The translations under genes were made by a program, and so were the position numbers. This document shows, in pieces, positions 1-7,601 of a stretch of 7,660 bases of DNA. The stretch covers positions 1 to 7,660 of the forward strand of contig JAFRLP010000248.1 in the NCBI GenBank assembly GCA_017431185.1. Reading direction: 5' to 3'. The notes beneath the pieces are model-generated. The model was not told where the DNA came from. It did not search any database and worked only from the letters and a program-made list of their open reading frames with translations. This stretch comes from Victivallales bacterium. Its GTDB lineage: Bacteria; Verrucomicrobiota; Lentisphaeria; Oligosphaerales; Oligosphaeraceae. The first letter of the stretch is position 1. The number at the start of each line of letters is the position of its first letter.

Positions 1-1064
1 AAGTCGATGATGACCTTGCCGACGCGCTTGATGGCCCGTACCTGCGCCATCCAACTGGCGACTTGTTTTTCGTTGGTGGTATCGACATCATCCAAGTGCA
101 TGACTTCATTCTTGATGTAGAAATCCAATTCGCGGGAAAGGAAGCCGCCCAAGTCCTTGTGGATGAAATAGTCGAAGGTGTTTTTCGCGACGTATGCCTT
201 GAGATGCTTGCCCAGAAGCGTCAATGATTTCTTCGGGTCCTGCGAGATGGGATTCAATAAAAACAGTAGCGGTTTGCATTCATTGGCAATCCACGTGGTG
301 ATGCGCTTCTCATTGTCCGTGGCATAGTCGAACTTCTTGTCTGCTGGAATGTCAAACGTGAAGCGGATGAAGAGTTCTTTGCGTTCCGCGTCGAATTCAA
401 AGGTTTTGATGTCAGGCTGCTCCTGTGTCTCGTTGTAGAGCATGAAGACGCGTTTGGAATCGGCGGATTCCTTGTTGTTGTTCTGTTCCGTCGTGGCGTC
501 CACAAGCCGAAAGTGAATCGTATAGCCCTCGGCCACGAAGGTGTAGTCCTTGAAGTTCTCGCTTGTCTTGATGTAGTATTGGTCCTGATTTGCCCAGTAG
601 AGCTTGACTTCCTCCCCCTCGTAGGGAATGGCATAGACACCTTCCTTGTAGCGGCGCTTGGAGATGAAGTCTCCTTCTTCATAGTAGCGGCTGAAGAAGC
701 TCAAGAGGTGGGAATAGACATCCGCCTCCAAACCTGACAAATCGACGCCTTTGGCAAGTTGCGTCTTCAGGTCGGCATACTCTTTAACCATCGGAATCGC
801 CTGGGGCAAGGCCGCAATCGCCGCTCCATCCCCCAACTGTTTTTCGATTTCGAGAATGCGTTTTTCGATTTCAGTAGTGTCTGCCGCAAATGGCGCCAAT
901 GTCTCCTGAACTCTTTTCGGCAGGCCTTCGGAGAGAAATTTCTCTATCTCCTTCTTCCGAATATTCATGATGCGGTAGATGCCAAAGTCCAGGTCGGCCT
1001 TGTCAATCTCAAAGATTTCCCGCAGGCGTTCTATCAGTCGATTGAGTTGTTCGGAAGCATTCAT
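1..1064 (-). CDS. Site-specific DNA methyltransferase (Mod/N6-adenine type), N-terminal part, runs off left edge
   Basis: The minus frame is open from the start to the window edge, giving 354 residues. I read the translation by hand; it begins MTMNASEQLNRL and contains DLDFGIYRIMN (about 27-37), SFFSRYYEEGDFISKRRY (about 123-140), YAIPYEGEEVKLYWANQDQY (about 144-163) and DYFIHKDLGGFLSREL (about 305-320). From memory, this is the conserved N-terminal region of large (roughly 1000-residue) bacterial adenine methylases of the Mod/COG2189 kind that sit beside SNF2 helicases. The SAM-binding and DPPY catalytic motifs would lie beyond position 1, so catalysis is not shown here. I chose the ATG at 1064 because AAGGGA stands six bases upstream. 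In-frame ATGs at 1070 and 1085 are alternatives, and the latter overlaps the helicase stop as ATGA. It is the third gene of the HTH-helicase-methylase operon and probably protects host DNA or marks the target site. Confidence 0.85.
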   Translation of the reverse strand, partial: MNASEQLNRLIERLREIFEIDKADLDFGIYRIMNIRKKEIEKFLSEGLPKRVQETLAPFAADTTEIEKRILEIEKQLGDGAAIAALPQAIPMVKEYADLKTQLAKGVDLSGLEADVYSHLLSFFSRYYEEGDFISKRRYKEGVYAIPYEGEEVKLYWANQDQYYIKTSENFKDYTFVAEGYTIHFRLVDATTEQNNNKESADSKRVFMLYNETQEQPDIKTFEFDAERKELFIRFTFDIPADKKFDYATDNEKRITTWIANECKPLLFLLNPISQDPKKSLTLLGKHLKAYVAKNTFDYFIHKDLGGFLSRELDFYIKNEVMHLDDVDTTNEKQVASWMAQVRAIKRVGKVIID

Positions 1065-1070
1065 GGTCAT

Positions 1071-1076
1071 TCCCTT
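1071..1076 (-). promoter_or_regulatory. Ribosome binding site of the methyltransferase gene
   Basis: AAGGGA on the minus strand, six bases before the ATG at 1064. It favours that start over the ATG at 1070, which directly abuts the motif, and over the ATG at 1085, which overlaps the helicase stop and lies upstream of the motif. Confidence 0.5.
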
Positions 1077-1081
1077 GTCAT

Positions 1082-3985
1082 TCATTTCAACGTCCAGTGC
1101 AAGACGAACAGAGGTTGCTCTGTAACAGTCTGGACGAGCTTCTTTTTCAGTGCGGAAAGAATTTGTGCACGTTTGGCTTCGGCGGCATCCTCCACGGCAT
1201 CAATGTTACGACGTGCCTTGGAAAGTTTTTTCTCCAATTGCGCAGCCAGTTCCGTTGCCTCTGTCTGTTCCGTCAAATTGGCTGCATTTTCGATGGCGCG
1301 CCTGGCCGCCTTAAGTTCGGCACGAATGGTGTCAACGGTATGCTGCGCTGCCTTCACCTGGTCATCCTGCCAGCGTTCCAATTGTGCCTGGCGTTCTTTG
1401 AAAAGTTTGTTGGATGTCTCCAGCTCTCGTTGTGCCGTGGCATTGGAGAGCAAAGACGCCTCCTTTTGCAGACGTGCTTCCACGTCTGGGGTAATACTGT
1501 GAGGCTCTCCCATGGCGCCATCCAGGCTGAAGAATTGTTCCAGAACATCCGTTGGAATGCTTTGCCTGTCTTCCGTGAAACCGGAGAAGAGAAGAGAATC
1601 TTCCGTGTCGATTCCTTCGGCGATTCGCTTGTTCAGAAACATCCAGCCGGATTTTCCCTTCATTTGCTCCAGCACGGATATTTTCCCATGATAACCGGAA
1701 ATGTCAAATGTCACATCGCACACAGGCGGATGAAGCTGAGATGCTGCATTTAGGCACCAATTGCCCAATTCACAGTTGGTACGATAAATGTGGCCGTACT
1801 CCTTATTCTCTCCTTTGTCCTCATTTCTTCGCAAATCCGACTTTGGCTTCAATGCATAGAGGCCAGCGGGAATATCTTCCTCTGGAGGTTGACGCAAAGT
1901 GAAGGTCAATGCTTCGTCATTGAAATCCGCACGTTCTTTCAGCATGAATTCTGTAAGACGCCAGAATTTGCGACCATATTCACCTAGGCAATCCAGCGCC
2001 TCGTCATAGTCGATTTTCAGGATTTGACGTACCGAATCGTCAAAGTTTTCCAGTACCTGGCGTCGCGTCTGCCGCATTTTGTCATTGATTTCCGCTTCAA
2101 GTTCGGCCTGAAGCTGGTCAAATCTCGCCTGGATTTCCTCCTCTGTGCGACATTGTTGGTAGAGCTCCAAAATCTTGCGCTCCAGTCCAACGCCGCTTTC
2201 CAACTGGCCAAGCACTTCATCGGAAGCTCCGAATACCCCATTGAACAACCGGAATTTGCTCGTCAGCAATTCATAGACACGTTTATCGGCTGCATTCCTT
2301 TCATTGAGGAAGTTGATGACGACCACGTCGTGTTTCTGCCCATACCGATGGCAACGGCCAATCCGCTGTTCGATGCGCTGCGGATTCCACGGCAGGTCAT
2401 AATTGATGACAAGAGAACAGAACTGCAGGTTGATTCCTTCTGCTCCGGCTTCAGTCGAAATCATGATTTTTGCCTTGGTGCGGAAGTTCTCCACCAAGGC
2501 ATGGCGCATCATGATGGCCTTGCTGCCTTCCGTATTCACTTCTGAATTATAGCGGTTGTCGGCCATGAACTCCGTATAAATCATTTCGGCAACAGGGTCT
2601 TTCTTGCCGCCGCCTGAATAGCAGACAACTTGTCCTTTGTATCCATGCTGCTCAAGATAGGTTCGCAGATAGTACATGGAGCGACGTGATTCCGTGAAGA
2701 TGACCGTTTTCTCCTCTGCGCCTAGTTCGCGCATTTTGGTCCAGCCTTGCTGCAGTGCAGTCAACAGGCTTTCCGTTTTCGTGTCCACAGTGACGTCATA
2801 CGTCATGTGGATAAAGTGGTCCAGTTCATCTATCTCCTTCTGGAGTTTCTTCATGTCAATAACTTTGTGATTTTCTTCAGGAGGCTCTTCATCCTCCACT
2901 TCATCATCCAGAAGTTCGGTTTCGTCAAGATAATCATCCAGTGCATCCACGTCCAGCAAGACATCTTCTGGAATGTCCTCATCTTTGTTTTCGTCCCGCA
3001 AGGCAATCAATCTGGCCTTGATTGCCTCCAAAGTACTACGCAATGCGTTCGTGCTGGATGCCAAAAGCTTTCGCACGACGAGTGTAATCAACTGGCGTTG
3101 CCCCTGGGGGAAGGCATAGCAGTCCTGTTGTTGAAGAAAACGAGATACAGCATCATAGAGTCTTTGCTCTGCTTCCTGGGGGATAAAACGCATGGTAAGC
3201 AGGCGGCGTTCTGTATAGCGGATGTATTCCGCCACATCCTTGCGCAGAGTGCGTCGGCAAAAGGATGCCAGTCGCTTACGTAGCCCTTCGATATCTCCGC
3301 CAGCATTGGCATACATGTTACGGAAACTCGGCAGGTCGGGAAACATCTCTTCGTCAATGAGGGTGGCAATGCCATATAGCTCAGACAACGAGTTCTGCAA
3401 AGGGGTTGCTGTGAGAAGAATCTTCCGACGTTCGCTTAAAGCCCAGCGCAGACGTTGACCGATTTTGCTGCTTTGACGATATGAATTGCGCAATTTGTGA
3501 GCTTCGTCGATTACAACCAGCGACCATTCTATCGCTCGTAAATCTTCCGCCATTTTGCTTGCGAAATGATAAGATGTAATGATGATATCATTTGTTGAAA
3601 ATGGCCTAGGTCTCCCGTTTCGCGTCGCTTGATTATATGACTTGGCATCAAGTATTGTTGCTCTAAGGTTGAATTTATCCTCCAATTCAACCTGCCATTG
3701 CTTACGTAGTGATGCAGGACAAATGACCAGTAAGTGCCGTTTCCTTTCAGCATTGAACTGACATAGCACCAAGCCAGCTTCAATCGTTTTTCCAAGACCA
3801 ACTTCATCGGCAAGCAGAACCCCTTTGGAAATTGGAGAATGCATCGCAAATAGGGCAGCTTCAACCTGATGCGGGTTTAAATCCACCGATGCGTCAAAGA
3901 GGGATTGACTCAGACGCTCCAGCCCCTCTCCACCACGACGCGTTAGCTCGTTGGCAAAATAAATTGCATGGAAAGGAGTAATCAT
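1082..3985 (-). CDS. SNF2-family DEAD/DEAH-box helicase (967 aa)
   Basis: Complete ATP-dependent DNA translocase of the SNF2/RapA superfamily-2 type. Visible motifs are Walker A DEVGLGKT (60-67), Ia PASLRKQW (90-97), II DEAH (160-163), III TATPLQN (192-198), V STEAGAEGINLQ (510-521) and VI QRIGRCHRYGQ (540-550). A strongly acidic insert (about 331-372, 23 of 42 residues D or E) separates the two RecA lobes. The C-terminal third has no domain I recognise and includes an E/A/K-rich, probably coiled-coil stretch (about 832-945). The start ATG overlaps the TGA of the HTH gene (ATGA), and its own stop is 17 bases before the preferred methylase start, so the three genes form one transcription unit. 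In known anti-phage systems, SNF2 helicases paired with a methylase act as DNA-translocating or sensing subunits; that role is inferred here. No nuclease motif is visible in this protein. Confidence 0.92.
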   Translation of the reverse strand: MITPFHAIYFANELTRRGGEGLERLSQSLFDASVDLNPHQVEAALFAMHSPISKGVLLADEVGLGKTIEAGLVLCQFNAERKRHLLVICPASLRKQWQVELEDKFNLRATILDAKSYNQATRNGRPRPFSTNDIIITSYHFASKMAEDLRAIEWSLVVIDEAHKLRNSYRQSSKIGQRLRWALSERRKILLTATPLQNSLSELYGIATLIDEEMFPDLPSFRNMYANAGGDIEGLRKRLASFCRRTLRKDVAEYIRYTERRLLTMRFIPQEAEQRLYDAVSRFLQQQDCYAFPQGQRQLITLVVRKLLASSTNALRSTLEAIKARLIALRDENKDEDIPEDVLLDVDALDDYLDETELLDDEVEDEEPPEENHKVIDMKKLQKEIDELDHFIHMTYDVTVDTKTESLLTALQQGWTKMRELGAEEKTVIFTESRRSMYYLRTYLEQHGYKGQVVCYSGGGKKDPVAEMIYTEFMADNRYNSEVNTEGSKAIMMRHALVENFRTKAKIMISTEAGAEGINLQFCSLVINYDLPWNPQRIEQRIGRCHRYGQKHDVVVINFLNERNAADKRVYELLTSKFRLFNGVFGASDEVLGQLESGVGLERKILELYQQCRTEEEIQARFDQLQAELEAEINDKMRQTRRQVLENFDDSVRQILKIDYDEALDCLGEYGRKFWRLTEFMLKERADFNDEALTFTLRQPPEEDIPAGLYALKPKSDLRRNEDKGENKEYGHIYRTNCELGNWCLNAASQLHPPVCDVTFDISGYHGKISVLEQMKGKSGWMFLNKRIAEGIDTEDSLLFSGFTEDRQSIPTDVLEQFFSLDGAMGEPHSITPDVEARLQKEASLLSNATAQRELETSNKLFKERQAQLERWQDDQVKAAQHTVDTIRAELKAARRAIENAANLTEQTEATELAAQLEKKLSKARRNIDAVEDAAEAKRAQILSALKKKLVQTVTEQPLFVLHWTLK

Positions 3986-4191
3986 GGCTGCTCTTCAATA
4001 TGGAGGGGCGAACGACGCTTCTGGATGCTATCCAACCATGTATCGACTTCCTCTTTTCTAAACAACCATTTCTTCCCGATTCGAACAGCAGGCATCTGCT
4101 TGGTTTCTATCCAACGGTAGATAGTATCTTTGCTGACGTTCAAATACTTTCCGACGTCTTCAACTTTCCATAGACTTTCGTCAGAATTCAT
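3982..4191 (-). CDS. Excisionase-type helix-turn-helix DNA-binding protein (69 aa)
   Basis: Small winged-HTH protein of the excisionase/MerR-like HTH_17 type. LWKVEDVGKYLNVSKDTIYR (about 7-26) holds the helix-turn-helix, and MPAVRIGKKWLFRKEEVDTW (about 33-52) gives the wing and the typical second helix. The length fits the family. The start is supported by AGGAAA eight bases upstream and by a promoter-like sequence 45-75 bases upstream. It is the first gene of the operon and shares ATGA with the helicase, so translation is probably coupled. Such proteins either bend DNA for recombinases or act as local regulators. No integrase gene is present in the window, so I infer a regulator or specificity accessory of the helicase-methylase system rather than a true excisionase. 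Confidence 0.85.
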   Translation of the reverse strand: MNSDESLWKVEDVGKYLNVSKDTIYRWIETKQMPAVRIGKKWLFRKEEVDTWLDSIQKRRSPLHIEEQP

Positions 4192-4199
4192 TGCTGATG

Positions 4200-4205
4200 T
4201 TTCCT
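4200..4205 (-). promoter_or_regulatory. Ribosome binding site of the HTH gene
   Basis: AGGAAA on the minus strand, eight bases before the ATG at 4191, within GCAGGAAACATC. It supports this start for the first gene of the operon. Confidence 0.6.
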
Positions 4206-4235
4206 GCGTTAAAAATCAATTGAAACAAATGTAAC

Positions 4236-4265
4236 ATAATATATATTTAGCATTGAAAATCCCAA
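4236..4265 (-). promoter_or_regulatory. Probable promoter of the HTH-helicase-methylase operon
   Basis: On the minus strand TTGGGA (4265-4260) is followed after 16 bases by TATATT (4243-4238), or after 18 bases by TATTAT (4241-4236), in an AT-rich tract. A start near 4230 would leave a leader of about 40 bases before the HTH gene. A Bacteroidota-style TAnnTTTG box (TACATTTG, 4233-4226) also occurs, so the exact element depends on the host. The box faces away from the rightward TATAAT at 4327, so the two candidate promoters are divergent, a layout compatible with control by the HTH protein. Confidence 0.45.
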
Positions 4266-4302
4266 GCCCCTAATCGTCATTCTTTTTGGATTCTGCCTTA
4301 TT

Positions 4303-4332
4303 TTGCTATTTATTACTATTTATTGCTATAAT
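4303..4332 (+). promoter_or_regulatory. Candidate rightward promoter with perfect TATAAT box
   Basis: TTGCTA (4303-4308), an 18-base spacer, then an exact TATAAT (4327-4332). The spacer contains a tandem of ctatttatt units at ten-base spacing (4306, 4316). No plus-strand protein gene follows. A hairpin and two rightward-capable terminators lie downstream, so a short non-coding transcript is possible. An AT-rich stretch produces such boxes by chance, so this is only a candidate. Confidence 0.35.
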
Positions 4333-4368
4333 GACAGGCAAAAATCTTTGTTTCTTAGTGGTTTCAGT

Positions 4369-4417
4369 AAACAGCACACCCGCCAAATGGGCGAAGCCAT
4401 TGGCGGGCACGCTGTTT
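4369..4417. repeat. Large imperfect inverted repeat (18-base arms)
   Basis: The left arm (4369-4386) and right arm (4400-4417) pair at 15 of 18 positions: AAACAGC and CCCGCCAA pair perfectly with GCTGTTT and TTGGCGGG, separated by a three-base mismatch bubble. The loop is 13 bases. No T-run follows on either strand, so it is not a standard terminator. It could be the core fold of a small RNA, a cruciform or protein-binding site, or a vestige of a mobile-element end. Confidence 0.6.
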
Positions 4418-4526
4418 GCAATCTTCAAACTGTTTTTCACTCTCAATAGTTGTCATGATTTGTCAATGTTTGGCATGTTTTGCTGGCAGGTGTCCATGTG
4501 GGCCATGCGGGAAGTGCGTCAATGCG

Positions 4527-4553
4527 AAAAACGGCCCCCTTTGAGGGGCTTTT
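4527..4553. terminator. Bidirectional intrinsic terminator
   Basis: A GC stem (GCCCC at 4534-4538 with GGGGC at 4545-4549) is followed by TTTT on the plus strand (4550-4553). On the minus strand the same stem is followed by TTTTT (the complement of 4531-4527). It can end a leftward transcript from the ATPase gene and a rightward transcript from the TATAAT box. Confidence 0.6.
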
Positions 4554-4590
4554 GCCATTCATGGATATAGATCCCTGAAAATACCTTCGT

Positions 4591-4624
4591 GCCCGAGGGG
4601 GGCTCCCTGGGAGCCTTTTCGGGC
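4591..4624 (+). terminator. Nested hairpin, probable rightward intrinsic terminator
   Basis: The inner palindrome GGCTCCCTGGGAGCC (4601-4615) is followed by TTTT (4616-4619). An outer pair, GCCCGA (4591-4596) with TCGGGC (4619-4624), encloses it. The T-run lies only on the plus strand. No plus-strand protein gene ends here, so it either backs up the terminator 40 bases before it or is left over from a lost gene. Confidence 0.5.
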
Positions 4625-4822
4625 ATTTCAACTCAAAACCGACCCGTTTTTTGCTTCCCGCGGAGCGTTCTCTGAAAGCCCTCGCTGTTGGGCTGAAAAC
4701 GACGATGCGGTCATTTCCCGCCGCTGCTCAACGGGACCCTTTCTTGACGCGTCGGACGGTATGCTTGGAAAAATAAGGCTGAGCGTTTCTGTGCAGGGGA
4801 AGTGGTCGTTAGCAGCATCATA
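4625..4822. other. Intergenic tail after the ATPase gene, no gene seen
   Basis: I found no recognisable protein, RNA gene or clear terminator here. A GACGCGTC palindrome (4746-4753) and a T6 run (4649-4654) without a good stem are the only visible marks. Reading frames that cross it are shadows of the ATPase gene or have no recognisable product. Confidence 0.5.
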
Positions 4823-6016
4823 TCATCCGAGCAGCCAGTCCAAGGCATTGAGTTTGCGGATGCCGTCGATGTTGTCGGCGGGGTCTTCGTCCAGGGTGAG
4901 GAGGAACTTGGGATGATGGTCGCGGATTTTGCCGAAAGGTGCGAGTTCTCGCTCCAGGGTTGCGTGGTCGCGGACGGTGGCGGCGACCTGGTAGTATTCC
5001 GTCCCGTTGGCGTTTTCCGCCACGAAATCCACCTCCAGGGAACCGACCTTGCCGATATGCACCTTGTATCCGCGACGGAGCAACTCCAGGAAAACGACAT
5101 TCTCCAGGATGTGGCCGACGTCCTGCGAACGCCCTGAAAGGAGATGTCGGCGGAGACCGACATCCACCACGTAGTACTTCTCCAATGTCTTCAGCAACTG
5201 CTTGCCCTTCACATCGTATCTCTCCGCCTTGTAGATGAGGAAACATTCCAGCAACGCGTCCAAATACCTCTCGATGGTCCTCGAATCGGACTTGCGTCCG
5301 TCGGAGGTCAGCGCTCCGGCGATTTTCCGCGTAGAGAGTTCGCTGCCGATGCTGTCGAACACGAACTTCGTCACGCTGTCCAGCATCAGCGGGTCGGGGA
5401 TTTTCCGCCTCTGGGCGATGTCCTTCAGGAGGATGGTGTTGTAGAGTCCCTCAAGGTAGTCCTCCAGTTCCCGTGGCGTGTCCAGCAATTCTCCTGCGTA
5501 TGGGAAGGAGCTTTTGCCGACATATTCGGCATACAGGCGTGAGCGTTCCCCATCTCCGCGCATTTCCACAAATTCACGGAACGACAGCGGGAGCATCTTG
5601 ATCTCCACATAGCGTCCCGAAAGCAGGGTGGCAATTTCGTGGGAGAGGAGATTCGCATTTGAGCCAGTGATATAGATGTCCACGTCAGGGCGAATGTAGA
5701 TGCTGTCGATGACCTCGGGAAAATCCTCGCACAACTGCACCTCGTCCACGAACACGTATGTCATCTCGCCTGGTTTCAGCCTGTCCTTGATGTACGAATG
5801 GAGGGCGTCGGGATTCCGCAACGGCTTGTTGTCCCTGTCCTCGAGGTTCACCGACACGATGCGTTCCGCCGGAACCCCCTGGGTTTGCAACCACTCCTGG
5901 AACATCTCCAAAAGGAACGATTTTCCACATCGGCGCACGCCAGTGACGACCTTGATGACCTGCTTGGCGCGCCAGCCACGCAGACGTTCCATGTATTCCC
6001 TGCGCTCTATCTTCAT
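4823..6016 (-). CDS. AAA_14-DUF4143 family ATPase (397 aa)
   Basis: Complete protein of the common bacterial and archaeal AAA_14 + DUF4143 type. The N-terminal ATPase shows Walker A GVRRCGKS (26-33), Walker B YVFVDEVQ (87-94), a sensor-like ITGSNANLLS (116-125) and SGRYVEIKMLPLSFREF (133-149), typical of the family. The C-terminal domain (about 190-397) has the DUF4143 pattern with a restriction-endonuclease-like fold: E305, then LEVDFV (327-332) with D330, then YYQVA (341-345). The usual lysine after the second strand is replaced, so cleavage activity is doubtful. The start is supported by AGGAGAGG just upstream and a promoter at 6055-6082. It is a single-gene unit with palindromic sites upstream. 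The biological role of this family is poorly known; links with DNA metabolism or mobile elements are inference. Confidence 0.93.
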   Translation of the reverse strand: MKIERREYMERLRGWRAKQVIKVVTGVRRCGKSFLLEMFQEWLQTQGVPAERIVSVNLEDRDNKPLRNPDALHSYIKDRLKPGEMTYVFVDEVQLCEDFPEVIDSIYIRPDVDIYITGSNANLLSHEIATLLSGRYVEIKMLPLSFREFVEMRGDGERSRLYAEYVGKSSFPYAGELLDTPRELEDYLEGLYNTILLKDIAQRRKIPDPLMLDSVTKFVFDSIGSELSTRKIAGALTSDGRKSDSRTIERYLDALLECFLIYKAERYDVKGKQLLKTLEKYYVVDVGLRRHLLSGRSQDVGHILENVVFLELLRRGYKVHIGKVGSLEVDFVAENANGTEYYQVAATVRDHATLERELAPFGKIRDHHPKFLLTLDEDPADNIDGIRKLNALDWLLG

Positions 6017-6660: not shown

Positions 6661-7197
6661 CTAAACCTCCTCTTGAAAAGGCGCGACACCAAATTCCTCC
6701 TGCAACACGATGGCCATCGGAATGCCGAGCACAATCGGGAAGATCACTTCGTTCCCAAGCACAATACAGGCGAACAAAACGGCATTCACATCCGAATAGG
6801 CAAATGCGACTGCTGGAGTTATGATGAGGGCTTCCAGGAAGGCGGCGAGAACGATCACCACCGTATGGAAGAGCAGGTCTGGAATCGTCCTCAGTGCGAA
6901 CGGATGCCTGCCATAGCGCCTCCAGAGAAACCAGACTGCGCACGGGCCGAGGAAATTTGCCGCGAAGCCCGCTAGGGAAGACCAGCGCAGGGCATTGTCG
7001 AGGAGGTCGGAAACCAGATTTCCGCAGGCGTTGGCCAGGCAGCCGACGGGGCCGTAGAAGACGCCGTATATCGCGGCGAGCGCGCTGACCGGCCGCACAT
7101 TCGTGAAGCCGGGAATCAGGTTCATCGCCTTGAAGGGGATGGCAAAAAGCAGATAGACGGCCAGCAACAGGATGAAATTGCGCAACTGACGCTTCAT
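6661..7197 (-). CDS. Multi-pass membrane protein resembling an ECF-transporter S component (178 aa)
   Basis: Highly hydrophobic, with about five or six membrane segments, for example NFILLLAVYLLFAI (7-20), a segment around 38-60, LAGFAANFLGPCAVWFLW (about 75-92), a segment around 108-132 and IVLGNEVIFPIVLGIPMAIV (about 144-163). The stretch NVRPVSALAAIYGVFYGPVG followed by LANACGNLVSDLL resembles QueT-like and other ECF substrate-binding subunits, which bind a vitamin or precursor and work with a separate EcfA/EcfT module. No such module is in the window. The start overlaps the stop of the EamA-like gene as ATGA, with GGGAGG seven bases upstream, so the two membrane proteins are translationally coupled. 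The substrate cannot be named. It might instead be an uncharacterised membrane protein of similar shape. Confidence 0.6.
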   Translation of the reverse strand: MKRQLRNFILLLAVYLLFAIPFKAMNLIPGFTNVRPVSALAAIYGVFYGPVGCLANACGNLVSDLLDNALRWSSLAGFAANFLGPCAVWFLWRRYGRHPFALRTIPDLLFHTVVIVLAAFLEALIITPAVAFAYSDVNAVLFACIVLGNEVIFPIVLGIPMAIVLQEEFGVAPFQEEV

Positions 7198-7601
7198 TTT
7201 CCGGCCTCCCGCTGTACCCGCTTCCCTCGGATGTCAATGATTTCCGCCAGACTGCCGCAAAGGACCAGGACCGCCCCCAGCACGACTGTCGGCGTCAGAT
7301 GGACTGGCGTGATTACGCTGGCAGGCAGGATTAGTCCCCAGACCATGGAAAAGACAATCTCCAGCGAATAGACGACGGTTGCGTTCGTGGCGGTCACATG
7401 CTTCAAGGCGATGATGTTGAGGGACAGCGCGATGGCCTCGATGAAATAGGAGTAAATGGCCCACGAGGCGACCAGCGCCCGCGACAGGGGCAGCCCGAAA
7501 AACAGACGTGGGTCCTGCCAAAGCCAGCCGAACAGGGCGAACACTCCCGTGAAGAGTTCCAGAAGGATGGCGATGGCGAGAGGGTCGTGTCTTTTTGCCC
7601 A
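7194..7601 (-). CDS. EamA/DMT-family transporter, C-terminal half, 5' end disrupted
   Basis: The frame from 7601 reads WAKRHDPLAIAILLELF, then AIYSYFIEAIALSLNIIALK, ATNATVVYSLEIVFSMVWGL and LTPTVVLGAVLVLCGSLAEI. This is the second EamA repeat of drug/metabolite transporters, with the typical Ala/Thr-rich helix before SLE and a closing hydrophobic helix. A GTG at 7544 could serve as a start but would cut into the first helix. The same frame continues upstream with a plausible hydrophobic segment (WGVLLVVVA) after a TAA at 7602-7604, so the gene is either broken by a nonsense mutation or affected by sequence error near the contig end, where C-runs occur. Family members are about 290 residues with two EamA repeats. 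The substrate is unknown. Confidence 0.7.
   Translation of the reverse strand, partial: WAKRHDPLAIAILLELFTGVFALFGWLWQDPRLFFGLPLSRALVASWAIYSYFIEAIALSLNIIALKHVTATNATVVYSLEIVFSMVWGLILPASVITPVHLTPTVVLGAVLVLCGSLAEIIDIRGKRVQREAGK
7205..7210 (-). promoter_or_regulatory. Ribosome binding site of the S-component-like gene
   Basis: GGGAGG on the minus strand, seven bases before the ATG at 7197. It lies inside the last codons of the upstream transporter gene and confirms the ATGA-overlap start. Confidence 0.65.

Follow-up and report, generated by a model that had tools for sequence, protein, structure and literature searches.

The window analysed here is a stretch of 7,660 nucleotides (nt) from a Victivallales bacterium (G000:C95:14949-22608), part of a draft genome of 3.26 Mb with an estimated completeness of 95% and contamination of 8.5%. 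Three genes on the minus strand occupy window positions 1-4191: an excisionase-type helix-turn-helix (HTH) gene, an SNF2 helicase gene and the 5' part of a methylase gene (mod). The operon continues on the minus strand past position 1 into neighbouring sequence (read as L002 and numbered negatively below), where the remainder of mod is followed by genes for an AAA_21 ATPase, a DUF4276 protein, Res, an ABC-type ATPase, a 275-amino-acid (aa) protein and a TIR protein. The original prediction had named the first three genes, expected the rest of the system beyond position 1 and proposed a defence operon, and was borne out in these respects. The window probably contains the promoter-side end of a composite defence operon, in which further modules are inserted around a Type III restriction core.

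The HTH gene (69 aa; 3982..4191) and the SNF2 gene (967 aa; 1082..3985) share the ATGA at 3982-3985, the 4-nt overlap reported earlier. The mod gene (1052 aa) extends from 1085 to -2073 (L002:12875-16033); its part in the window (1..1085) encodes, at 3-1085, the N-terminal 361 aa of the protein, most of a conserved N-terminal region. The SNF2 stop overlaps a possible mod ATG at 1085 by 4 nt, as had been proposed, but a start at 1064, leaving a 17-nt gap, is more likely because AAGGGA lies 7 nt upstream of this ATG and the start agrees with that in L157, the closest relative, where the gap is 28 nt. Downstream lie the genes for the AAA_21 ATPase (374 aa; -3199..-2075), the DUF4276 protein (233 aa; -3875..-3174), Res (1247 aa; -7621..-3878), the ABC ATPase (700 aa; -9650..-7548, L002:5298-7400), the 275-aa protein (-10620..-9793, L002:4328-5155) and the TIR protein (264 aa; -11433..-10639), all on the minus strand. 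When the longest frames were taken, mod and the AAA gene were 1 nt apart, the AAA and DUF4276 genes overlapped by 26 nt, DUF4276 and res were 2 nt apart, and res and the ABC gene overlapped by 74 nt.

In the methylase, DPPF was located at residue 547 and FAGSGTT was located at residue 800. A continuation lacking S-adenosylmethionine (SAM) and DPPY motifs had been named beforehand as evidence against a defence operon, an objection that therefore does not apply. The best solved folds for the protein were Type III Mods, EcoP15I included. It is a Type III Mod, that is, a beta-class adenine methylase with a target recognition region. Mod has an extra conserved N-terminal region of about 410 aa, which gave no Protein Data Bank (PDB) match at E <= 0.001 and whose fold was not placed from the predicted model (predicted local distance difference test, pLDDT, 80; predicted template modelling score, pTM, 0.61). 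Res matched REase_III (601 bits) as its only PADLOC model and contains Walker A, DEGH, GRGVR and PD..DPK motifs. It is the Type III partner of Mod, a superfamily 2 (SF2) helicase with a putative PD-(D/E)xK-like nuclease called from the motif pattern. Type III systems use ATP to cut DNA between two unmodified sites that lie in inverse orientation. With the fold and motifs of a Type III Mod and a Res encoded together with mod, the operon is read from its genes as an SNF2-equipped Type III restriction-modification operon and not as DISARM.

The SNF2 protein matched SNF2-rel_dom (133 bits) and Helicase_C (69 bits) in Pfam, and Walker A, DEAH, TATPLQN and motif VI were seen. Its closest models were those of DrmD (PADLOC, 664 bits; NCBIfam DrmD_b NF038318, 670.7 bits at a cut-off of 950); a cross-match to the DrmA model reached 162 bits, far under the DrmD score. 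On these scores it is a clear DrmD relative, yet no called member. The HTH protein matched HTH_17 in Pfam (60.1 bits, cut-off 27) and TIGR01764 'excise' (63.3 bits, cut-off 28.8) and is a probable operon regulator. A similar HTH gene was found in L005 (59% identity), and an HTH gene is likewise placed on the plasmid locus L114. The earlier description of an excisionase-type leader holds for the window but not for such operons in general: among 44 loci with sequence upstream of SNF2, one clear (L005), one weak (L040) and one marginal (L076) HTH_17 match were found.

Relatives were collected by scanning GTDB genomes with an alignment of 33 Mods. From at least 574 matches, the best 80 gave 79 loci from many phyla, and three loci without a labelled Mod (L059, L069, L073) were dropped, leaving 76. 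Open reading frames (ORFs) of relatives were called by simple scripts, and the counts describe this sample. SNF2 lay upstream of mod on the same strand in 45/76 loci and, by tblastn, in one more (L032); res lay downstream of mod in 70/76, and both were present in 41/76. Among 18 contigs from a viral collection (two of which, L242 and L250, are alike and may be one), SNF2 was upstream in 11, res downstream in 14 and both were present in 10, with nearly empty slots. The same-strand SNF2-mod order is thus beyond chance. Direct abutment of the two genes, originally thought to mark a compact variant, proved to be the common layout, the gap being 161 nt or less in 33/45 loci. Slots contained ORFs of at least 80 aa between SNF2 and mod in 11/45 loci and between mod and res in 34/70. 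On a Mod tree of 74 rows, the number of changes required was 11 for SNF2 presence (59 rows), 19 for mod-res occupancy (70 rows) and 5 for presence of HEC-01, the pair found in the mod-res slot of the window operon (70 rows). A separate arrangement was seen from L010:3762 onwards, where long mod genes of 1085 and 1064 aa enclose a 382-aa ORF and are followed by one res.

Among 59 related genomes, the source genome included, seven had Mod matches with an E value no higher than 1e-44 (G000, G005, G006, G011, G018, G029 and G056). At least 80% of Mod was covered in 25 of 336 matching plasmid records. The Aeromonas media plasmid pE31A (L114) carries the first six genes of the window operon in identical order. 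An E. coli plasmid carries HTH-SNF2-Mod-Res; its slots are empty, and its HTH protein seems not to be related to that of the window. Of 5,426 E. coli genomes, 2 covered 80% or more of this sequence. No deposited phage record out of 50,697 covered 80% of Mod, and 151 matched it in part.

The cargo between mod and res in the window operon is HEC-01, a catalogued defence candidate formed by the AAA ATPase and the DUF4276 protein (PADLOC, E 6e-135 and 5e-72). The ATPase was also matched by AriA, Old and GajA models; its partner matched DUF4276 in Pfam, and the PADLOC models that it matched were all of HEC-01B. The EGxTE and D.YG motifs of the latter are presumably Toprim-like, and the protein may be a nuclease. 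Membership in PARIS was rejected, the partner being DUF4276 and not AriB. The HEC-01 pair was present in 6 of 70 mod-res slots (L005, L027, L038, L052, L060, L079). Other slots held other families. Of the 77 slot ORFs of relatives, 30 were compared with Pfam, and 20 were matched and 10 were not. Matches were to YhcG/DUF1016 nuclease and GmrSD (three each), Fic (two) and, once each, PHP-AAA_23, Abi_C, Schlafen AlbA_2, AAA_15/21, Bro-N, NOV_C, RhuM, PolyVal kinase, DUF2971, AAA_33/zeta-like, a borderline PLDc_2 and an integrase-core transposase.

A second Type III-like family (L183, L184) likewise has HEC-01 at the mod-res junction; plasmid pE31A carries two different Type III-like operons (L114, L183), each with HEC-01 between mod and res. 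The idea, raised by L183 and L184, that HEC-01 is a dedicated partner of this junction was dropped after its neighbours had been read in independent samples. DUF4276 occurred in 61/299 and 27/194 genomes sampled. The first neighbour sample comprised the 23 top DUF4276 matches (at least 134 bits; G105, the genome of L079, excluded), of which 19 were readable, L227, L230, L234 and L235 lacking a labelled DUF4276 frame. The second comprised 13 of 16 matches of at least 114 bits (the window locus, L156 and G110 excluded), of which L161-L163 were unreadable. Within five ORFs of DUF4276, a gene labelled Mod or Res was found in 0/19 and 0/10 readable loci; the labels came from a small reference set that would overlook many Type I contexts, and a free-standing HEC-01 is one with no Mod or Res label. 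A helicase-labelled gene adjoined DUF4276 in L238 and L165 (same strand) and L170 (opposite strand).

Modules of these operons have been exchanged. L156, from the same family as the window genome, encodes SNF2, AAA, DUF4276 and ABC proteins 83%, 76%, 56% and 64% identical to those of the window, together with a Mod at 35-36% and a Res at 37% identity, and has HEC-01 in the SNF2-mod slot instead; therefore Mod-Res and the accessory genes were exchanged separately. In L158 the SNF2-mod slot is occupied by a different pair, PDC-M25A/B. L005 (the same locus as L157, the contig being 21,554 nt long in both) is orthologous (SNF2 76%, Res 77%) and has HEC-01 in the same slot, but its HEC-01 ATPase belongs to another lineage and is 47% identical. 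In the AAA tree the window ATPase forms a clade (Shimodaira-Hasegawa-like approximate likelihood ratio test, SH-aLRT, 100) with those of L156, in the other slot, L166, with no Mod or Res nearby, and L164. The embedded and free states required 10 changes over 41 rows, with embedded copies scattered; one embedded row (L046) lacked a labelled DUF4276. The nine copies in long-Mod slots required 7 changes, at least 5 of them forced by well-supported branches, and their label was not clustered beyond shuffles (71/500 as low). Because of these changes and the different lineages of the L005 and window ATPases, HEC-01 is taken to have been captured repeatedly by such operons. At L164:8400-10420, HEC-01 is flanked by 34 codons left over from the Mod C-terminus and by a less certain Res-like start; this looks like a HEC-01 that remained after Mod and Res were lost.

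The ABC ATPase is annotated DUF2326 or SMC in relatives. Its gene follows res in the window operon, L157, L156 and L158, and follows a helicase-helicase-giant methylase operon, with overlapping ends, on two Burkholderiales plasmids and one Mesorhizobium plasmid (L116, L178, L179); it is a recurrent add-on of helicase-methylase systems. The 275-aa family gave 37 database matches. Its members lie between hsdS and hsdR (L180) and in a helicase-DUF4391-methylase locus (L181), so that the protein itself belongs to a restriction-embedded family. No relative of the 275-aa or TIR protein was found by tblastn in the fetched stretches L156, L157 and L158. The idea that ABC, 275-aa and TIR proteins form one ABC-three-component system was weakened by the occurrence of the ABC gene in these loci without the other two, by its place on the three plasmids and by the 275-aa relatives in other restriction loci. 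The ABC ATPase and the 275-aa/TIR pair are likely further defence modules.

A DUF4391 ORF between helicase and methylase, originally described as frequent in such loci, was found not to be the rule. DUF4391 was present in 1 of 49 genomes searched (of the 79 loci), that of L055, whose own slots are empty (gaps of 43 and -4 nt). The second locus of pE31A (L183) has the order SNF2-DUF4391-ATP-binding protein-Mod (629 aa)-AAA-DUF4276-Res, and L181 has a helicase, DUF4391 and a 632-aa methylase. DUF4391 marks a different helicase-methylase family with a Mod of roughly 630 aa.

Around the operon, promoter-like sites lie just 5' of the HTH gene (4236..4265, minus strand); positions 3900-4830 hold four on both strands against a mean of 1.5 in shuffles, as consensus matches only. 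A terminator-like hairpin at 4534..4549 (minus strand) and a second at 4379-4395 are also consensus matches; such sites numbered seven on both strands, some overlapping, against a mean of 1.2 in shuffles. Directly upstream, the gene at 4823-6016 (minus strand) encodes an AAA_14 and DUF4143 ATPase (PADLOC PDC-S01, E 5e-151) and is set apart from the operon by these hairpins. A QueT-like membrane protein gene at 6661-7544 (minus strand) and an adjacent EamA-like transporter gene, both under Pfam cut-offs, are ordinary genes bordering the defence region. Beyond the TIR gene, a 171-nt repeat occurs four times in L002:214-3119 (about -14734 to -11829), within similar ORFs in tandem; identity to the reference copy is 62-88%. 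We take these ORFs to be RhuM-like; one short ORF of the repeat region was tested and gave no Pfam match.

From the genes we infer the following activities, division of labour and anti-phage function. The long Mod would methylate adenine within a short sequence that its variable central region specifies, and the Mod-Res complex would recognise unmethylated sites on incoming DNA. The SF2 ATPase of Res would drive movement or sliding, and its PD-(D/E)xK-like domain would cut. The DrmD-like SNF2 protein, which most relatives with enough upstream sequence encode upstream of mod, may be an accessory translocase on double-stranded DNA, clearing or remodelling the DNA for Mod-Res or giving Mod-Res a longer reach. 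The small HTH protein would probably repress or tune the operon. HEC-01 may be an autonomous module acting like OLD or PARIS, its ATPase sensing a phage trigger and then releasing or activating the DUF4276 nuclease as a second layer, to which the downstream ABC and 275-aa/TIR modules would add. A more ambitious and doubtful proposal is that SNF2, long Mod and Res constitute a third kind of ATP-driven restriction machine with interchangeable back-up modules, different from DISARM as well as from classical Type III. The 410-aa N-terminal region of Mod would then couple the two motors, SNF2 and Res, and the SNF2-mod and mod-res junctions would be dedicated sockets for HEC-01, PDC-M25, Fic, YhcG nuclease, GmrSD, Schlafen and others, co-expressed with the core and firing when phages disable it.

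Several results weigh against a composite Type III operon with inserted modules. A 15-kb same-strand run with tight junctions does not prove a single transcript. The genome carries the contamination estimate given above, but genomes of the same family have close relatives of the operon. SNF2 was absent from 15 of 61 loci, the 61 being those that have it or for which 3.5 kb or more of upstream sequence was available, so it is not obligatory. Res had no PDB match in a single-sequence search, DUF4276 had no significant PDB sequence match (best E 1.3), and a motif search of the ABC protein did not detect a Walker A of the usual pattern. A functional link of HEC-01 to the operon is hypothetical, because its independent samples included no Mod or Res neighbour. 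Those 29 readable loci also bear on a rival in which SNF2, Mod, Res, HEC-01 and ABC are one integrated machine with HEC-01 as a built-in guard when Mod-Res is inhibited. Such a machine would account for the identical six-gene order of the window operon, L005 and the Aeromonas plasmid, for L156 keeping SNF2, HEC-01 and ABC together despite Mod-Res exchange, and for HEC-01 at the mod-res junction of the second Type III-like family. It fits poorly with HEC-01 filling just six mod-res slots, with the scatter of embedded copies in the AAA tree and with L164, which retains HEC-01 next to a mod remnant, and we consider it unlikely.

A DISARM class 1 or DISARM-like locus is the least probable reading, although the original prediction had pointed to DISARM and BREX. 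A DrmD-type helicase next to an adenine methylase speaks for it, as do the scores of SNF2 against DrmD and DrmA models. However, SNF2 falls under the DrmD_b cut-off, Mod and Res fit Type III models, and no separate DrmA or DrmC/PLD was found among the operon's proteins. The DrmB marker MZB (PF09369) had no match in the genome (95% complete) and was positive in 8 of 14 control genomes; the BREX marker PglZ (PF08665) likewise had no match in the genome and was positive in 2 of 14. The leftward genes did include the Res-like gene and ATPases that had been expected, but no PLD protein among the operon's proteins, nor was DUF1998 found in the genome. MADS membership was also rejected (MAD1, 62.9 bits at a cut-off of 80; MAD3, 105.3 at 420). 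Solitary adenine methylases often regulate genes, and, the anti-phage function being a prediction, an epigenetic or housekeeping methylase set is conceivable; patchy occurrence (7/59 related genomes), carriage on plasmids (25/336 records), the nuclease-like motif of Res and the presence of TIR and HEC-01 as neighbours make it very improbable. Scarcely more credible than DISARM is a decaying locus that no longer works: the DUF4276 gene of L005 leaves frame and the mod of L156 is in two pieces, whereas all nine genes of the window operon are uninterrupted open frames, six of them with the expected motifs.

The composite Type III operon replaces a vague call of helicase-methylase defence with a defined, testable layout in which a Type III core has SNF2 as accessory and sockets for cargo. 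It is of interest mainly because it clearly illustrates how defence genes can be nested within one another. Relatives with and without SNF2 or HEC-01 form a natural deletion series, in which it can be asked whether nested defences are co-passengers or guards of the restriction core. HEC-01 suits the question of autonomy, as it occurs in this operon, in a second Type III-like family and also apart from neighbours of this type. The core itself is already catalogued; what is new as a variant is the layout with SNF2 and cargo, together with the evidence of its exchange. Literature searches, whose scope excluded bioRxiv preprints, found no paper with DUF4276, none joining DUF4391, methyltransferase and helicase, none joining SNF2, 'type III restriction', DISARM and embedded, and no title on such an operon.

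Compared with Type III systems (EcoP15I and Mbo45V Mod; PADLOC MTase_III PDLC03646 and REase_III PDLC03654), the operon has the same DPPF-before-FAGSGTT order, a beta-class N6-type Mod with a variable target region, mod upstream of res, and a Res that combines SF2 helicase motifs with one that is PD-(D/E)xK-like. It differs in the approximately 410 additional, highly conserved N-terminal residues of Mod, in the SNF2 helicase gene before mod and in the further modules between mod and res. DISARM class 1 shares the DrmD-like SNF2 helicase next to an adenine methylase; here no DrmB was found in the genome, and separate DrmA and DrmC are missing from the operon. Both proteins of HEC-01 (PADLOC 'Hma-embedded candidate') match strongly, and here they lie inside a Type III operon. 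An ABC-type AAA ATPase with a small partner is common to PARIS (AriA and AriB) and OLD/Gabija, whose AriA, Old and GajA models match; the partner here is DUF4276 and not of the AriB family, and we assume it to be of the Toprim-like class, as in PARIS and OLD/Gabija-type systems. Hma likewise combines helicase, methylase and ATPase in one operon and embeds other defences. Its methylase is reported to be a 5-methylcytosine (m5C) enzyme (Payne 2021, PMC8565338), whereas the methylase here is an N6/N4-type Mod with a Res partner. Precedents for nested or guarding defences are DarTG2, embedded in an enteropathogenic E. coli (EPEC) Type I locus with a small leading repressor, RptR (PMC12255303), and PrrC, in the Type I locus EcoprrI, and PARIS (PMC12707154). 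The operon shares with such Type I loci a second defence inside a restriction locus, here of Type III and with other cargo.
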